From: Chryseobacterium paludis
Lineage (GTDB): Bacteria; Bacteroidota; Bacteroidia; Flavobacteriales; Weeksellaceae
Length of the DNA stretch: 64,000 nucleotides
NCBI RefSeq assembly: GCF_025403485.1
Contig: NZ_CP099966.1
Coordinates: forward strand, 3,075,001-3,139,000
Reading direction: 5' to 3'
Shown: positions 51,968-56,020 of the stretch, piece after piece
Numbering within the stretch: the first letter of the stretch is position 1
Layout of the letters: each line of letters begins with the position of its first letter
Notes under the pieces: model-generated
The model's input: only the letters and a program-made list of their open reading frames with translations
Database searches by the model: none
Told to the model about the DNA's origin: nothing
Made by a program: the position numbers and the translations under genes

Positions 51968-53401
51968 ATGTGTCTATTGTTAAAGGTAAAATATAAGGGA
52001 TTATTTCAGTGGCTTTTAATAATTTCAGTTTTAGTTTTTCTGAACGGTTGTAATAAAAAGAATAATATTACTTACATAAACCTTGCTTTAAACAAAAGTG
52101 ACAGACTTAGATTAGAGGGAAAAAAGGAAGAGGTCATATCTGTGAATAATGAAATAATCAAAGTTTCAAAAGAAGAAAATTATAAAAAAGGAGAAGCTTT
52201 AGCATATATAAATCTTTCAAATATTTTTGGAACCATTGGAAATTATAAATTAAGCCAACATTATTTAAAATTAGCTGAAAAAATAGCTTTCAGAATCAAC
52301 GATGACTTTGTCTATACCAGATTATACCATGAATATGGGCAAATGAATTATGTCATAGGATTGATATCAACCGCTTTAAAGTACAATTCTAAAGCGATCT
52401 ATTATGGTAACAAATTAGATGAAAAAGGATGGCTGTTAGGGAATATATATGACCAGAGAGCTGATTTTCTGCTTGATAAAAATAAAGATTCTGCCTTCAT
52501 CTACTATCATAAAGGATTTGATGTAGATCCTTCTGCTCTTAATAGTGCGTTAATAGGTAATTATCATCTACGACAGACCAATAATCTGGATTCCGCTTCA
52601 TTTTATATTAATAATGCACTCATACTATTAAAAAAGAAAGATAATTTAACAACCCGACCTGGTATTATTTACTTTTATTATGCTGAATTGTGTTTTAAAC
52701 AAAAAGATTATACAAAGGCTTTAGAGTTTTATGAGAAATCTCTTGTAATCTTAAAGAAGACAAGAAGAATTAATAAACTGCCTGAAGTCTATCAAAAAGT
52801 TGCATTAACGTATAAAAAACTTAATCAATTTGAAAAAGAGAATGAGTATTTAACAAAATATAATCAACTGAATGACAGCTTAAATAAATCCGGAAATGAA
52901 GCAATAGACATTTCAACGAGCGAAGCAATAGAAAATAATAACTCTTCGATTACTAAACACTCTACACTCTATCTTATCATATTTCTTTCTATTCTGGGAG
53001 TAATTATTATCTTATTTTTCAAATACCCTAAAAAACAAAAAAATAAAGATTCTTCTGTTCCTATATCGGAAGAAAAAACCTCAGAAATAAGGAGCACCAT
53101 ACCTGATGAATATTTTACTGAGTTGCTTAGTCTGGCAAAAAATAATGATATTAAGTTTCTCAATAGATTTGAGGAGACCCATCCTACATTCTTTCAAAAC
53201 CTTTTCAAACATAATTCTCAACTGACAAGATCAGAATTATCATTATGTGGAATGATCCTACTGGGTCTTTCTTCAAAAGATATTGCTGATTTTTCATTTA
53301 TGCAACATCGGTCAGTACAGATTAAAAAAGGAAGATTAAGGAAAAAACTCAATATTTCTTCTGATGTTAATTTATATAATTTCTTTAAAACTTTAACCTA
53401 G
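51968..53401 (+). CDS. TPR sensor lipoprotein with C-terminal LuxR-like helix-turn-helix
   Basis: The 477-residue protein starts with a hydrophobic signal ending FLNGC, a possible lipobox (Cys near residue 28). It then has tetratricopeptide repeats (about 35-310; YINLSNIFGTIGNYKLSQHY, YYAELCFKQKDYTKALEFYEKSL), a membrane helix (STLYLIIFLSILGVIIILFF, about 330-350) and a cytoplasmic C-terminus. The C-terminus has a GerE-like helix-turn-helix (LTRSELSLCGMILLGLSSKDIADF, then RSVQIKKGRLRKKL). Such Bacteroidetes proteins are membrane-bound one-piece regulators: the TPR part senses, the C-terminus binds DNA. The targets are unknown. Confidence 0.87.
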   Translation: MCLLLKVKYKGLFQWLLIISVLVFLNGCNKKNNITYINLALNKSDRLRLEGKKEEVISVNNEIIKVSKEENYKKGEALAYINLSNIFGTIGNYKLSQHYLKLAEKIAFRINDDFVYTRLYHEYGQMNYVIGLISTALKYNSKAIYYGNKLDEKGWLLGNIYDQRADFLLDKNKDSAFIYYHKGFDVDPSALNSALIGNYHLRQTNNLDSASFYINNALILLKKKDNLTTRPGIIYFYYAELCFKQKDYTKALEFYEKSLVILKKTRRINKLPEVYQKVALTYKKLNQFEKENEYLTKYNQLNDSLNKSGNEAIDISTSEAIENNNSSITKHSTLYLIIFLSILGVIIILFFKYPKKQKNKDSSVPISEEKTSEIRSTIPDEYFTELLSLAKNNDIKFLNRFEETHPTFFQNLFKHNSQLTRSELSLCGMILLGLSSKDIADFSFMQHRSVQIKKGRLRKKLNISSDVNLYNFFKTLT

Positions 53402-53615
53402 TTTATCAGCTACTTAATTATTACATAGAAACTGAAGTAAAATTTACAAGCTATTAATTAGTTAATAGTTGAAAAGCTCTAGCTGGAAAGTATAATAGCT
53501 TTTTTAAGTTATCTACTTCATGCAAAGAATTAATTTGAGATAAATAGACCTAAAATTTGTCAAAGACACTTGAAGTTGGACTTAAGATCATTTTTATAAC
53601 ACTTTTTTCATCATT
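53402..53615. other. Intergenic region after the TPR gene
   Basis: This holds a small inverted repeat CTATTAA-4-TTAATAG (53451-53468) and a possible terminator hairpin AAAAGCT/AGCTTTTTT (53472-53505, 18-base loop). The rest is AT-rich and non-coding. The conserved hexamer array begins at 53616. Confidence 0.45.
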
Positions 53616-53643
53616 GATGTATTTACGTTGTATCTCTGTTGTA
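53616..53643 (+). promoter_or_regulatory. Three-hexamer operator, copy 1
   Basis: GATGTA (53616-53621), GTTGTA (53627-53632) and GTTGTA (53638-53643) are spaced exactly 11 bp apart, about one helical turn. Three bases later comes a run of eight T and GCA that contains the -33 TTTG. The same array occurs at 55219. This looks like the site of an activator or repressor. Confidence 0.72.
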
Positions 53644-53651
53644 CACTTTTT

Positions 53652-53682
53652 TTTGCAGTATTTATCCATGTAAATACATTTG
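53652..53682 (+). promoter_or_regulatory. Promoter downstream of operator copy 1
   Basis: TTTG (53652-53655), 19 bp, then TACATTTG (53675-53682) is a near-ideal Bacteroidetes promoter. Transcription would start near 53689, leaving a leader of about 250 bases before the helix-turn-helix gene at 53938. Confidence 0.76.
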
Positions 53683-53937
53683 CATATATAACAATACCCC
53701 AAAAACTTTAATGTCCAAAAATTAAAACTATTTGGATATCAACCCATAATAAAATGGATATAATGAACTGTCGGAGATTTTAATGTGAAGATAAAGTCAT
53801 AAAATATAAAATCTTTCTTTTCATTTAATCTATTAAGTAATAGGAAAATATAAATACAAGCGGGAAAATACAAACAATAATGATAATATTTAACAGTACT
53901 TTATTTTGAAAAAATACTAGCATTAAAATAAAAGCGT

Positions 53938-54405
53938 ATGCACAATTTTAAAAATATTCATATCGGAAAAACAGTTGAAACAAAGGTTATAGAAAGAAAC
54001 ATAGAGATATCTCGCCTTTGTAATTATTTTAAATGCAAAGAAAACGAAATCCATGTAATGTTTAGTTCAAAAAGCCTGGACGCAGAAGTCCTTTTAAAAT
54101 GGAGTAAGCTTTTAGACTATGATTTTTTCAGATTTTACAGCCAACATCTGATATTGTACGCACCACAGGAAAATGCAAGTTATAACAACCAGATAAATAA
54201 AAAATCTTCTCTTCCAGAGTTTCGCAAAAACATCTATACAAAGGAAATTATAGACTCCATATTAGAAATGATAAAAAAAGGAAAGAAAAGTAAAGCTCAA
54301 GTGATAGAACAGTATAGAATACCGAAAACTACCCTATATAAATGGATTGAAAAATATACTAACGAACAACCTAATGAACTTATAATTAAAAATAAACTCA
54401 AATAA
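53938..54405 (+). CDS. Helix-turn-helix protein with a transposase-like C-terminus (first of pair)
   Basis: The 155-residue protein has two parts. The N-terminus (about residues 6-75; IHIGKTVETKVIERNIEISRL, then LLKWSKLLDYDFFRFYSQHL) looks like an XRE-type DNA-binding fold. The C-terminus (about 105-145; SILEMIKKGKKSKAQVIEQY, then IPKTTLYKWIEKYTNEQ) resembles the helix-turn-helix of IS3-type transposase OrfA. No recombinase domain or terminal repeats are present. I recall similar short proteins, often in pairs, in Chryseobacterium genomes with no known role. A strong promoter with three hexamers lies upstream. Confidence 0.78.
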   Translation: MHNFKNIHIGKTVETKVIERNIEISRLCNYFKCKENEIHVMFSSKSLDAEVLLKWSKLLDYDFFRFYSQHLILYAPQENASYNNQINKKSSLPEFRKNIYTKEIIDSILEMIKKGKKSKAQVIEQYRIPKTTLYKWIEKYTNEQPNELIIKNKLK

Positions 54406-54537
54406 TGGATCTACTTGTAGAAGGATGCAAATTCTTTAGTTAAGATTCACGACCTATATCAAATGGTTTACCACAGGTAAATTTTACGTATTGTATTCGG
54501 TAGTAACAAGATGTTCGAATTATTAATAAAAAAACAG

Positions 54538-54861
54538 ATGAAATCAAAATCAGTAAACTATAAAAAAATATATGAAGATATTCTTAATGAGAAGTTTCCT
54601 GACAAAATATTGGATTGCATGAGTATTTTAAATAAAAAAAAATTAACTGTTCTGGACGTAATAGAACTCAACAAAAAAATTTTCGGAAAAGAAAACCTGG
54701 TATCTGAATCACAGAATAAAAGGTTTCGTTCCTACAATAAATCCGATATTCTTATGATCCTTGACTATCAGAAAAAGCACAACCTGAATAACACCCAGAT
54801 GGCAATACAATTCGGGTTAAGCCGTACCACTATAGCCTATTGGAAAAAACTGTTTTTATGA
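54538..54861 (+). CDS. Small helix-turn-helix protein (second of pair)
   Basis: The 107-residue protein has a charged N-terminus (VNYKKIYEDILNEKFPDKI), a middle helix region, and a C-terminal helix-turn-helix (SDILMILDYQKKHNLNNTQMAIQFGLSRTTIAYWKKLF). The C-terminus is again transposase-like. I chose the second ATG (54538) over 54511 because the sequence pattern begins there. It lies 132 bp after the first helix-turn-helix gene and is followed by a strong terminator, so the two form a cassette. Confidence 0.75.
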   Translation: MKSKSVNYKKIYEDILNEKFPDKILDCMSILNKKKLTVLDVIELNKKIFGKENLVSESQNKRFRSYNKSDILMILDYQKKHNLNNTQMAIQFGLSRTTIAYWKKLFL

Positions 54862-54926
54862 AAAAAACGAAACATTAAATCAAAAAATACCTTCAACCAT
54901 AGATTAATAAATAATTGAACAATTAT

Positions 54927-54962
54927 AATAAGTATCAAACTAAGTTTGATACTTATTTTTTC
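54927..54962 (+). terminator. Rho-independent terminator after the helix-turn-helix pair
   Basis: A 14-bp perfect stem (AATAAGTATCAAAC with GTTTGATACTTATT) has a 3-base loop and ends in a T run. It lies 65 bp after the second gene. Confidence 0.85.
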
Positions 54963-55218
54963 TCTAAAAAAACAAAAATTGAATCAAAAACAACATAATA
55001 TTTATTCAAATAAAAAGTCTGATGAAGGAACAATATGAATGAAAATAAATTTAAAAAATGAATTAATGTTCCCTTCTTTTTATTTATTAGAATGATAAAC
55101 AAGATACAAAATACTTAATAAAGAGAAAATTACCATCTAAAAACGGTAGGCTAAAGACGTGATTGCTCAATGAAATCAAATTAGAAAAACAAGGCCTACA
55201 CAGTGCTGAACAAGGGTC
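54963..55218. other. AT-rich intergenic region
   Basis: There is no convincing gene here. A frame beginning at 55163 overlaps the promoter below and has no family features. The region leads into operator copy 2. Confidence 0.5.
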
Positions 55219-55246
55219 GATGTACTTGTGTTGTACCTATGTTGTA
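55219..55246 (+). promoter_or_regulatory. Three-hexamer operator, copy 2
   Basis: GATGTA (55219-55224), GTTGTA (55230-55235) and GTTGTA (55241-55246) repeat at 11-bp spacing, in the same order as copy 1. Four bases later a run of eight T and GCA contains the -33 TTTG. The spacer bases differ from copy 1, so only the hexamers and T run are conserved. Confidence 0.72.
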
Positions 55247-55255
55247 TATATTTTT

Positions 55256-55286
55256 TTTGCAAAACTTATAAATGGAAATATTTTTG
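55256..55286 (+). promoter_or_regulatory. Promoter downstream of operator copy 2
   Basis: TTTG (55256-55259), 19 bp, then TATTTTTG (55279-55286). The spacing equals that of copy 1. Transcription would start near 55293, about 320 bases before the small secreted protein gene. Confidence 0.76.
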
Positions 55287-55612: not shown

Positions 55613-56020
55613 ATGAAAAAACAAATTTTAGTAATGACAATATTACTTGCTTCTTTTAGTTATGCCCAAGAAGTTGGTCCAAAAGCACTAGGTTCAGATA
55701 GAGATAAGCATGGCTGCATAGGCTCAGCAGGTTATACATACTCACAAATCAAAAAAGATTGTATCAGACTTTTTGAACAAAAGGTACTGTTAAAAGAAGC
55801 TAATCCTAAAGGAAGTTATACATCAAATGCAGCTGTAGTTTTCAGTGAAGACCATAAAAAAGCCGAAATCTTTCTCCCTACATCTAAAGGAAGTGTCATA
55901 CTTTCCAGAACAACATCATATAAAAACACAACCGTTTATAAAAAAGGAGGACTCACACTTATTAAAGATAAAGACAATTATACTCTAACGAGATCTAAAA
56001 AAATAATATATAGTCTATAG
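55613..56020 (+). CDS. Small secreted protein with two conserved cysteines
   Basis: The 135-residue protein has a signal peptide (ILVMTILLASFSYA-QE). The mature part begins with DRDKHGCIGSAGYTYSQIKKDCIRLFE, where the two Cys lie 13 residues apart and could form a disulfide. The rest is beta-rich and basic. The GCIGSAGYT...CIRLFE pattern recurs in small exported proteins of several bacteria, as I recall; no function is known to me. It stands alone behind operator copy 2. Confidence 0.82.
   Translation: MKKQILVMTILLASFSYAQEVGPKALGSDRDKHGCIGSAGYTYSQIKKDCIRLFEQKVLLKEANPKGSYTSNAAVVFSEDHKKAEIFLPTSKGSVILSRTTSYKNTTVYKKGGLTLIKDKDNYTLTRSKKIIYSL

Follow-up and report, generated by a model that had tools for sequence, protein, structure and literature searches.

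Two triple-hexamer arrays in the genome of Chryseobacterium paludis are very probably tandem binding sites of the regulator encoded beside them, a TPR-TM-GerE protein (positions 51968 to 53401) and putative activator of a helix-turn-helix (HTH) gene pair and of a gene for a small secreted cysteine protein. Judged from sequence comparison, the arrays appear to exemplify a more general code among Chryseobacterium-like bacteria: many regulators of this type lie beside repeats at 11-bp spacing, and the letters of the repeats track the DNA-reading helix. The window, i.e., the whole stretch of 64,000 nucleotides that was analyzed, covers positions 3075001 to 3139000 of the 5.05-Mb genome; positions given below are those of the window, and all features lie on its plus strand.

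Arrays and promoters in the window

The gene order is the TPR/LuxR-like gene, array 1 with promoter 1, HTH1 (53938 to 54405), HTH2 (54511 to 54861), array 2 with promoter 2, and the secreted cysteine protein gene (55613 to 56020). Direct reading located GATGTA-N5-GTTGTA-N5-GTTGTA at 53616 to 53643 and at 55219 to 55246, followed by CAC after array 1 and TATA after array 2 and then, in both, by T8 and GCA. The triple arrays, T8 tracts, and TTTG-19 bp-TAnnTTTG promoters described in the first-pass annotation are all present. The T8 tracts (53647 to 53655 and 55251 to 55259), which also conform to the family T-run profile, end in the −33 TTTG of each promoter. Promoter 1 (53652 to 53682) reads TTTG-19 bp-TACATTTG, with its −7 box at 53675 to 53682 and a predicted start at ∼53687; promoter 2 (55256 to 55286) reads TTTG-19 bp-TATTTTTG, with its −7 box at 55279 to 55286 and a predicted start at ∼55291. 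The Bacteroidota sigma-A promoter has a −7 box TAnnTTTG, placed at −12 to −5 in the available part of PMC9723704, and both window promoters are predicted from sequence to be of this type.

Family-wide, the repeated unit is a heptamer, TGNNRTA, every 11 bp. Array 1 (53615 to 53643) accordingly reads TGATGTA, CGTTGTA, TGTTGTA and array 2 (55218 to 55246) CGATGTA, TGTTGTA, TGTTGTA, each with one copy starting in CG (CGTTGTA and CGATGTA, respectively). The equal spacing claimed earlier holds within the promoters (TTTG-19 bp-TAnnTTTG in both), but the distance from the last half-site to the start of the −7 box is 32 bp for array 1 and 33 bp for array 2, so that array-promoter spacing is nearly, not exactly, equal. 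The two promoters are 77% alike over about 70 bp, a likeness that could partly reflect promoter duplication. When ≤3 mismatches were allowed, the triple matched twice in the window, against 0.11 matches expected, and 1 of 100 shuffles reached 2; a chance origin of the arrays is unlikely.

The exact pair GTTGTAN5GTTGTA occurs in the whole genome only in the two window arrays. With ≤1 mismatch the pair was not enriched (37 matches versus 39 for the reversed pattern), which leaves the exact pair and the triple as the informative patterns. Across the genus, GNTGTA-N5-GNTGTA-N5-GNTGTA was found at 23 places in 11 of 173 genomes, while the reversed pattern was found at 3; the array is thus neither randomly placed nor confined to this genome. 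A stricter pattern that included the T-tract gave 15 rows, equal to 12 distinct places, in 7 of 173 genomes (reversed pattern, 3 matches).

The regulator and the genes beside the arrays

The TPR-TM-GerE regulator (477 amino acids; recognition helix FMQHRSVQIKKGRLRK) is predicted from Pfam, an AlphaFold2 model, and hydrophobicity to cross the membrane once, with a TPR sensor domain that is probably periplasmic and a LuxR/NarL-type DNA-binding domain that would be cytoplasmic. Its Pfam matches above cut-off are TPR_12 and GerE (PF00196; 26.7 bits versus a cut-off of 23.5), and 28 of 38 aligned relatives match GerE at an E value of ≤0.001. A hydrophobic segment is predicted at residues 333 to 351, between the sensor and the DNA-binding domain, and in 101 of 102 family proteins such a predicted segment starts 90 to 190 residues before the C terminus; against the proposal, a crude scan found an N-terminal hydrophobic segment in only 58 of 102. 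The AlphaFold2 model (38 sequences; mean pLDDT, 87; pTM, 0.63) has a superhelix of TPR helices at about residues 33 to 300, a long helix at 288 to 352 that holds the membrane segment, and a C-terminal part consisting of a low-confidence linker and a helical bundle at 380 to 476. The best 50 matches among solved structures are mostly TPR proteins, including Rap peptide receptors (E value of about 2e-4), and include no LuxR-type domain. Pfam gave no receiver domain at an E value of ≤1, and the protein is therefore not a NarL-type response regulator. NCBIfam gave only below-cut-off matches, among others the BT3442 family and FimS; the one paper found to mention BT3442 concerns, by its listing, a MACPF protein.

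Named homologues of the regulator are nearly all from Chryseobacterium among the matches listed (120 of 213), under names such as LuxR C-terminal-related, tetratricopeptide repeat, and hypothetical proteins. Such regulators number 1 to 17 in each of 20 of the 24 genomes sampled (E value, 1e-20), and in a wider search 15 of 60 genomes and 8 of 33 genera, its own included, contained a homologue at an E value of 1e-15 or better. Within the species the regulator-array module may be accessory, since G164 (same species, 97% complete) has neither a close TPR-LuxR homologue (best, 31%) nor arrays.

The proposed target of array 1, HTH1 (155 amino acids), matches HTH_7 just above its cut-off, and HTH2 (116 amino acids) matches HTH_28 below its cut-off; HTH2 adjoins HTH1 in most of 30 HTH1 loci. 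HTH1/HTH2 pairs are multicopy, with 6 HTH1 matches in the genome of C. paludis and 1 to 20 in each of 35 genomes of the same genus. The proposed target of array 2 is a protein of 135 amino acids with an N-terminal signal-like segment (by eye) and with no Pfam match at an E value of ≤1 and no NCBIfam match at ≤0.01. In several genomes, inspection by eye showed the arms GAGGGGC...GCCCCTC, separated by about 50 bases, in the 5′ leaders of such secreted-protein genes (loci L193 and L195 and relatives); they may form a regulatory stem or belong to a small RNA.

Three sets of 30 loci, chosen by the secreted protein, HTH1, and HTH2, were scored for a TPR-LuxR gene within 1.5 kb. Among secreted-protein loci, TGNNRTA arrays were present in 7 of 7 with and 1 of 22 without TPR-LuxR (Fisher P = 5e-6, a value that overstates independence, because 6 of the 7 positive loci look mutually orthologous). 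The window's own locus was left out of this count, because its regulator lies beyond 1.5 kb, and the single array match without TPR-LuxR looks like chance. Among HTH1 loci, arrays were present in 4 of 6 with TPR-LuxR and 0 of 24 without (P = 5e-4), leaving 26 of 30 with no array within 1.5 kb. HTH2 loci had arrays in 2 of 2 with TPR-LuxR, against which stand 3 of 28 without; two of these exceptions (G010 and G023) have a TPR-LuxR gene 1.5 to 2 kb away, and the third (G012:C12) has a match to the C-terminal part of TPR-LuxR about 1.6 kb away.

A natural deletion distinguishes the two arrays. The locus in the related genome G012 retains the regulator (89% DNA and 90% protein identity) and the secreted gene (89% DNA identity), whose product, an 84% homologue, adjoins array and regulator there, and has lost the HTH pair. 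Array 2 is preserved in all 18 hexamer bases, together with T8G and the TAnnTTTG box (TACCTTTG), and its spacers have changed. In the syntenic remnant of array 1, 5 of 18 hexamer bases have changed and both promoter boxes are broken (one case, judged by eye). Flank identity is similar (74% over 418 bp and 77% over 254 bp). Selection on an array plus its target would give this pattern.

That one regulator acts at both sites from one DNA face, as first suggested, is supported by inference; of the candidates named at the time, the TPR/LuxR-like protein at 51968 is favored over the HTH pair. In the alternative reading, the pair would, by autoregulation, bind the array of its own promoter and also that of the secreted gene. 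It consists of small HTH proteins, it adjoins array 1, and HTH genes in L077, L201, and L313 are likewise preceded by arrays. Nevertheless, G012 keeps array 2 with no pair at the locus, although other HTH1 copies exist in that genome, all 24 HTH1 loci without TPR-LuxR within 1.5 kb lack an array, and the exact hexamer pair is restricted to the window locus despite the six HTH1 matches of the genome. Control by the pair is very unlikely. The paralogous pairs of the same genome (L173, L174, and L175) have no upstream lag-11 GNTGTA pair, and the sole GNTGTA-pair match, in L173, falls inside a long open frame.

We propose instead that, upon a signal, the membrane-held GerE domain of the TPR-TM-GerE regulator would bind two or three half-sites, one helical turn apart on one DNA face, directly upstream of the −33 box. 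RNA polymerase would be recruited and would start at TAnnTTTG, with transcription of the HTH pair and the secreted cysteine protein as the predicted result.

Period and promoter geometry across the family

The 11-bp period is a property of the regulator's family. An array-biased set of loci (TGTA spacing) was replaced by 55 loci picked by TPR-LuxR homology, which represent part of the homology matches (L193 to L196 were also matches in the secreted-protein search) and are not independent of one another in the counts that follow. In noncoding DNA of these loci, identical 6-mers occurred 192 times at lag 11 and 38 to 97 times at each remaining lag between 7 and 30, while 20 control stretches from the same genome set showed no lag-11 peak (26 versus 5 to 38). 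TGNNRTA pairs numbered 59 at lag 11 (31 with the same NN) versus 1 to 9 (0 to 1) at other lags, with none at lag 11 in the controls. Clustering of the proteins at 50% identity left a lag-11 pair in 15 of 33 clusters (12 with the same NN), versus 0 to 6 (0 to 2) at other lags. Against the proposal, 18 of 33 clusters have no such pair within 2.5 kb, some of these showing variant repeats, and the 55% orthologues in L190 to L192 lack a TGTTGTA array, L190 and L191 having the variant repeat GTAGCTA. In the wider family search, a TGNNRTA pair was found in 7 of 27 loci, and L270, L277, L279, and L288, from other genera, have the same array-promoter layout, with TAnnTTTG or a near match.

Promoter position was profiled over 103 distinct arrays, including those of array-chosen loci. 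A T5 run begins mostly 4 to 8 nucleotides past the last half-site, and an exact TAnnTTTG starts at +33 in 18 arrays, +34 in 3, +35 in 2, and any other position in at most 2 (the window arrays have it at +32 and +33). If the box occupies −12 to −5, as in the available part of PMC9723704, the last half-site ends near −45. This geometry bears on the alternative that the array is a repressor site or a DNA-bending element. The sites do abut the −33 box and T-tract, as such an element might, but the preferred offset upstream of the core promoter, with the −7 box left free, fits an activator, and the 11-bp direct repeat of ComA serves type II activation in the available part of PMC4797271. Repression or bending is therefore unlikely, and activation by the TPR-TM-GerE regulator is preferred. 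Transposon ends or attachment sites were considered because arrays can come in direct pairs 1 to 3 kb apart; they were rejected, as arrays keep a preferred distance from the promoter.

Elsewhere in the C. paludis genome (L170:2058-5434, at about 742 to 745 kb), a TPR-LuxR paralogue pair adjoins the array TGTTATATCTATGTAATA; downstream of that array is the gene for a secreted M4 protease of the thermolysin type, which carries a type IX secretion tail. Secreted proteins with a VGINT-like start are frequent beside arrays and regulators (L069, L075, L077, L078, L169, and L209), and three of these VGINT-like proteins gave no Pfam match.

Half-site letters and recognition helices

The sequence of a half-site correlates with the recognition helix of the neighboring regulator. 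Helices of the type H(R/K)SVQQKK or similar accompany TGTAGTA or TGTGGTA arrays, HRSVQ(I/T/N)KK mostly TG(A/T/C)TGTA, QPQS(I/V)Q TGTAATA or TGTCATA, RTVESKK TGCAGTA, RGIETKR TGAAGTA, and RA(V/I)QIRK TGTGATA. The relationship is not one-to-one, as TGTAGTA also occurs with VRA(V/I)xTK helices. A single genus-wide regulator with one site was rejected, since half-sites differ by paralogue. From 101 regulators (array-chosen ones included), 51 regulator-array pairs were retained after shared arrays were collapsed, and 22 of them below 60% identity. In these 22, the Mantel correlation with the site was 0.333 for the helix (P = 0.0002) and 0.353 for the TPR part, and the partial value for the helix given the TPR part was 0.19 (P = 0.007); at 80% thinning (n = 33), the TPR part gave 0.470 and the helix partial 0.138 (P = 0.03), partial Mantel tests being prone to over-optimistic results. 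Because the TPR part correlates too and a partial helix value remains, the signal reflects in part shared ancestry and in part the helix itself. The helix IKKGRLRK is common to two clades with about 29% identity (L070 and L313), both with TGTTGTA arrays, which suggests convergence.

TPR-LuxR genes do not accompany every array. By our own reading of the stretches, a homologue lies ≤6 kb from 13 of the 23 triple arrays in the genus; against this, 10 have no TPR-LuxR gene in the surrounding stretch (two in G123:C8, two overlapping in a tandem repeat of G083, one each in G159, G134, and G018, and three in G023), of which four, those of G023 and G018, are on a short contig or near a contig end. The stricter pattern added six places: a TPR-LuxR gene adjoins the array in G178 near 1.51 Mb, is present in G067 with an open frame that stops before the GerE part, and is represented in G178 near 2.60 Mb by a paralogue whose helix is of a different class and which lies about 2 kb off, while G178 near 1.12 Mb, G027, and G019 have none within 16 kb. 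In G178, two loci (L312 and L314) have TGTTGTA arrays at a distance from the gene for the IKKGRLRK-type regulator, which hints that some targets lie in trans.

In another alternative, a different regulator, e.g., a NarL-type response regulator encoded elsewhere, would read the arrays, and the TPR-LuxR gene would be only a co-regulated neighbor. NarL-type proteins have the same DNA-binding fold, and in G123:C8 (L071:5339-8383) a pair of GATGTA-type arrays adjoins an apparent histidine kinase and NarL-type response regulator with no TPR-LuxR gene. Such a reading is nonetheless improbable given that half-site letters associate with the recognition helix of the neighboring TPR-LuxR protein and that close TPR-LuxR homologue and arrays are absent together from the nearly complete G164. 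Recognition by the TPR-TM-GerE regulator itself remains the preferred explanation.

A literature search (titles and abstract openings) found no paper on 11-bp arrays with TPR-LuxR regulators, but partial parallels exist. MalT of Escherichia coli combines a LuxR-type domain, a TPR-like sensor, and direct-repeat boxes in a soluble ATPase-type (STAND) protein; unlike MalT, the regulator has no STAND module by Pfam. ComA of Bacillus subtilis, in the available part of PMC4797271, binds the direct repeat TTGCGG-5 nt-TTGCGG through a GerE/NarL/LuxR-type domain and resembles the present case in its hexamer-5 nt-hexamer layout, 11-bp period, and promoter activation. The window arrays would work like this site, with similar elements in direct orientation at an 11-bp period beside a core promoter, without the regulator being a member of that system. 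In contrast to ComA, arrays of the present family have two to four units, and half-sites appear to differ among paralogues. In addition to the direct repeat, ComA recognizes an inverted one, and it is not known to be a TPR protein of the membrane. The NarL/NarP heptamer TACYYMT resembles TAYNNCA, the reverse complement of TGNNRTA, but NarL is a two-component response regulator, for which the available part of PMC4886647 does not describe an 11-bp tandem code. The LuxR regulators of Eggerthella lenta likewise form a large paralogous membrane set encoded near the genes that they control; according to the available part of PMC9734109, which gives no binding-site code, their sensor consists of 10 to 12 membrane helices, in place of the TPR domain and one membrane helix found here. 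The 10 to 12 N-terminal helices of this Coriobacteriia family are absent from the regulator, which has one inner segment and an N-terminal hydrophobic segment.

On the preferred reading, the regulators form a large set of paralogues. Members that differ in helix class tend to have different half-sites beside their presumed targets, which would be HTH genes and neighboring genes for secreted or surface proteins. More tentatively, and with the odds somewhat against it, Chryseobacterium-like genomes might often hold several insulated private channels, each with a periplasmic TPR receptor, a membrane helix, and a GerE domain, its own half-site, and its own secreted or surface targets. Some of the TPR receptors may sense the secreted products themselves or peptides, the TPR fold also matching the Rap peptide receptors. 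Because half-site letters covary with a few residues of the recognition helix, this family would then offer a naturally occurring code for DNA recognition by GerE domains. For a regulator family whose listed names are generic, the proposal supplies a candidate binding site, a promoter layout, and candidate target genes. If this is correct, targets of many such regulators would be predictable from sequence, and the many diverged regulator-site pairs would provide a natural data set on how the GerE domain chooses its DNA.
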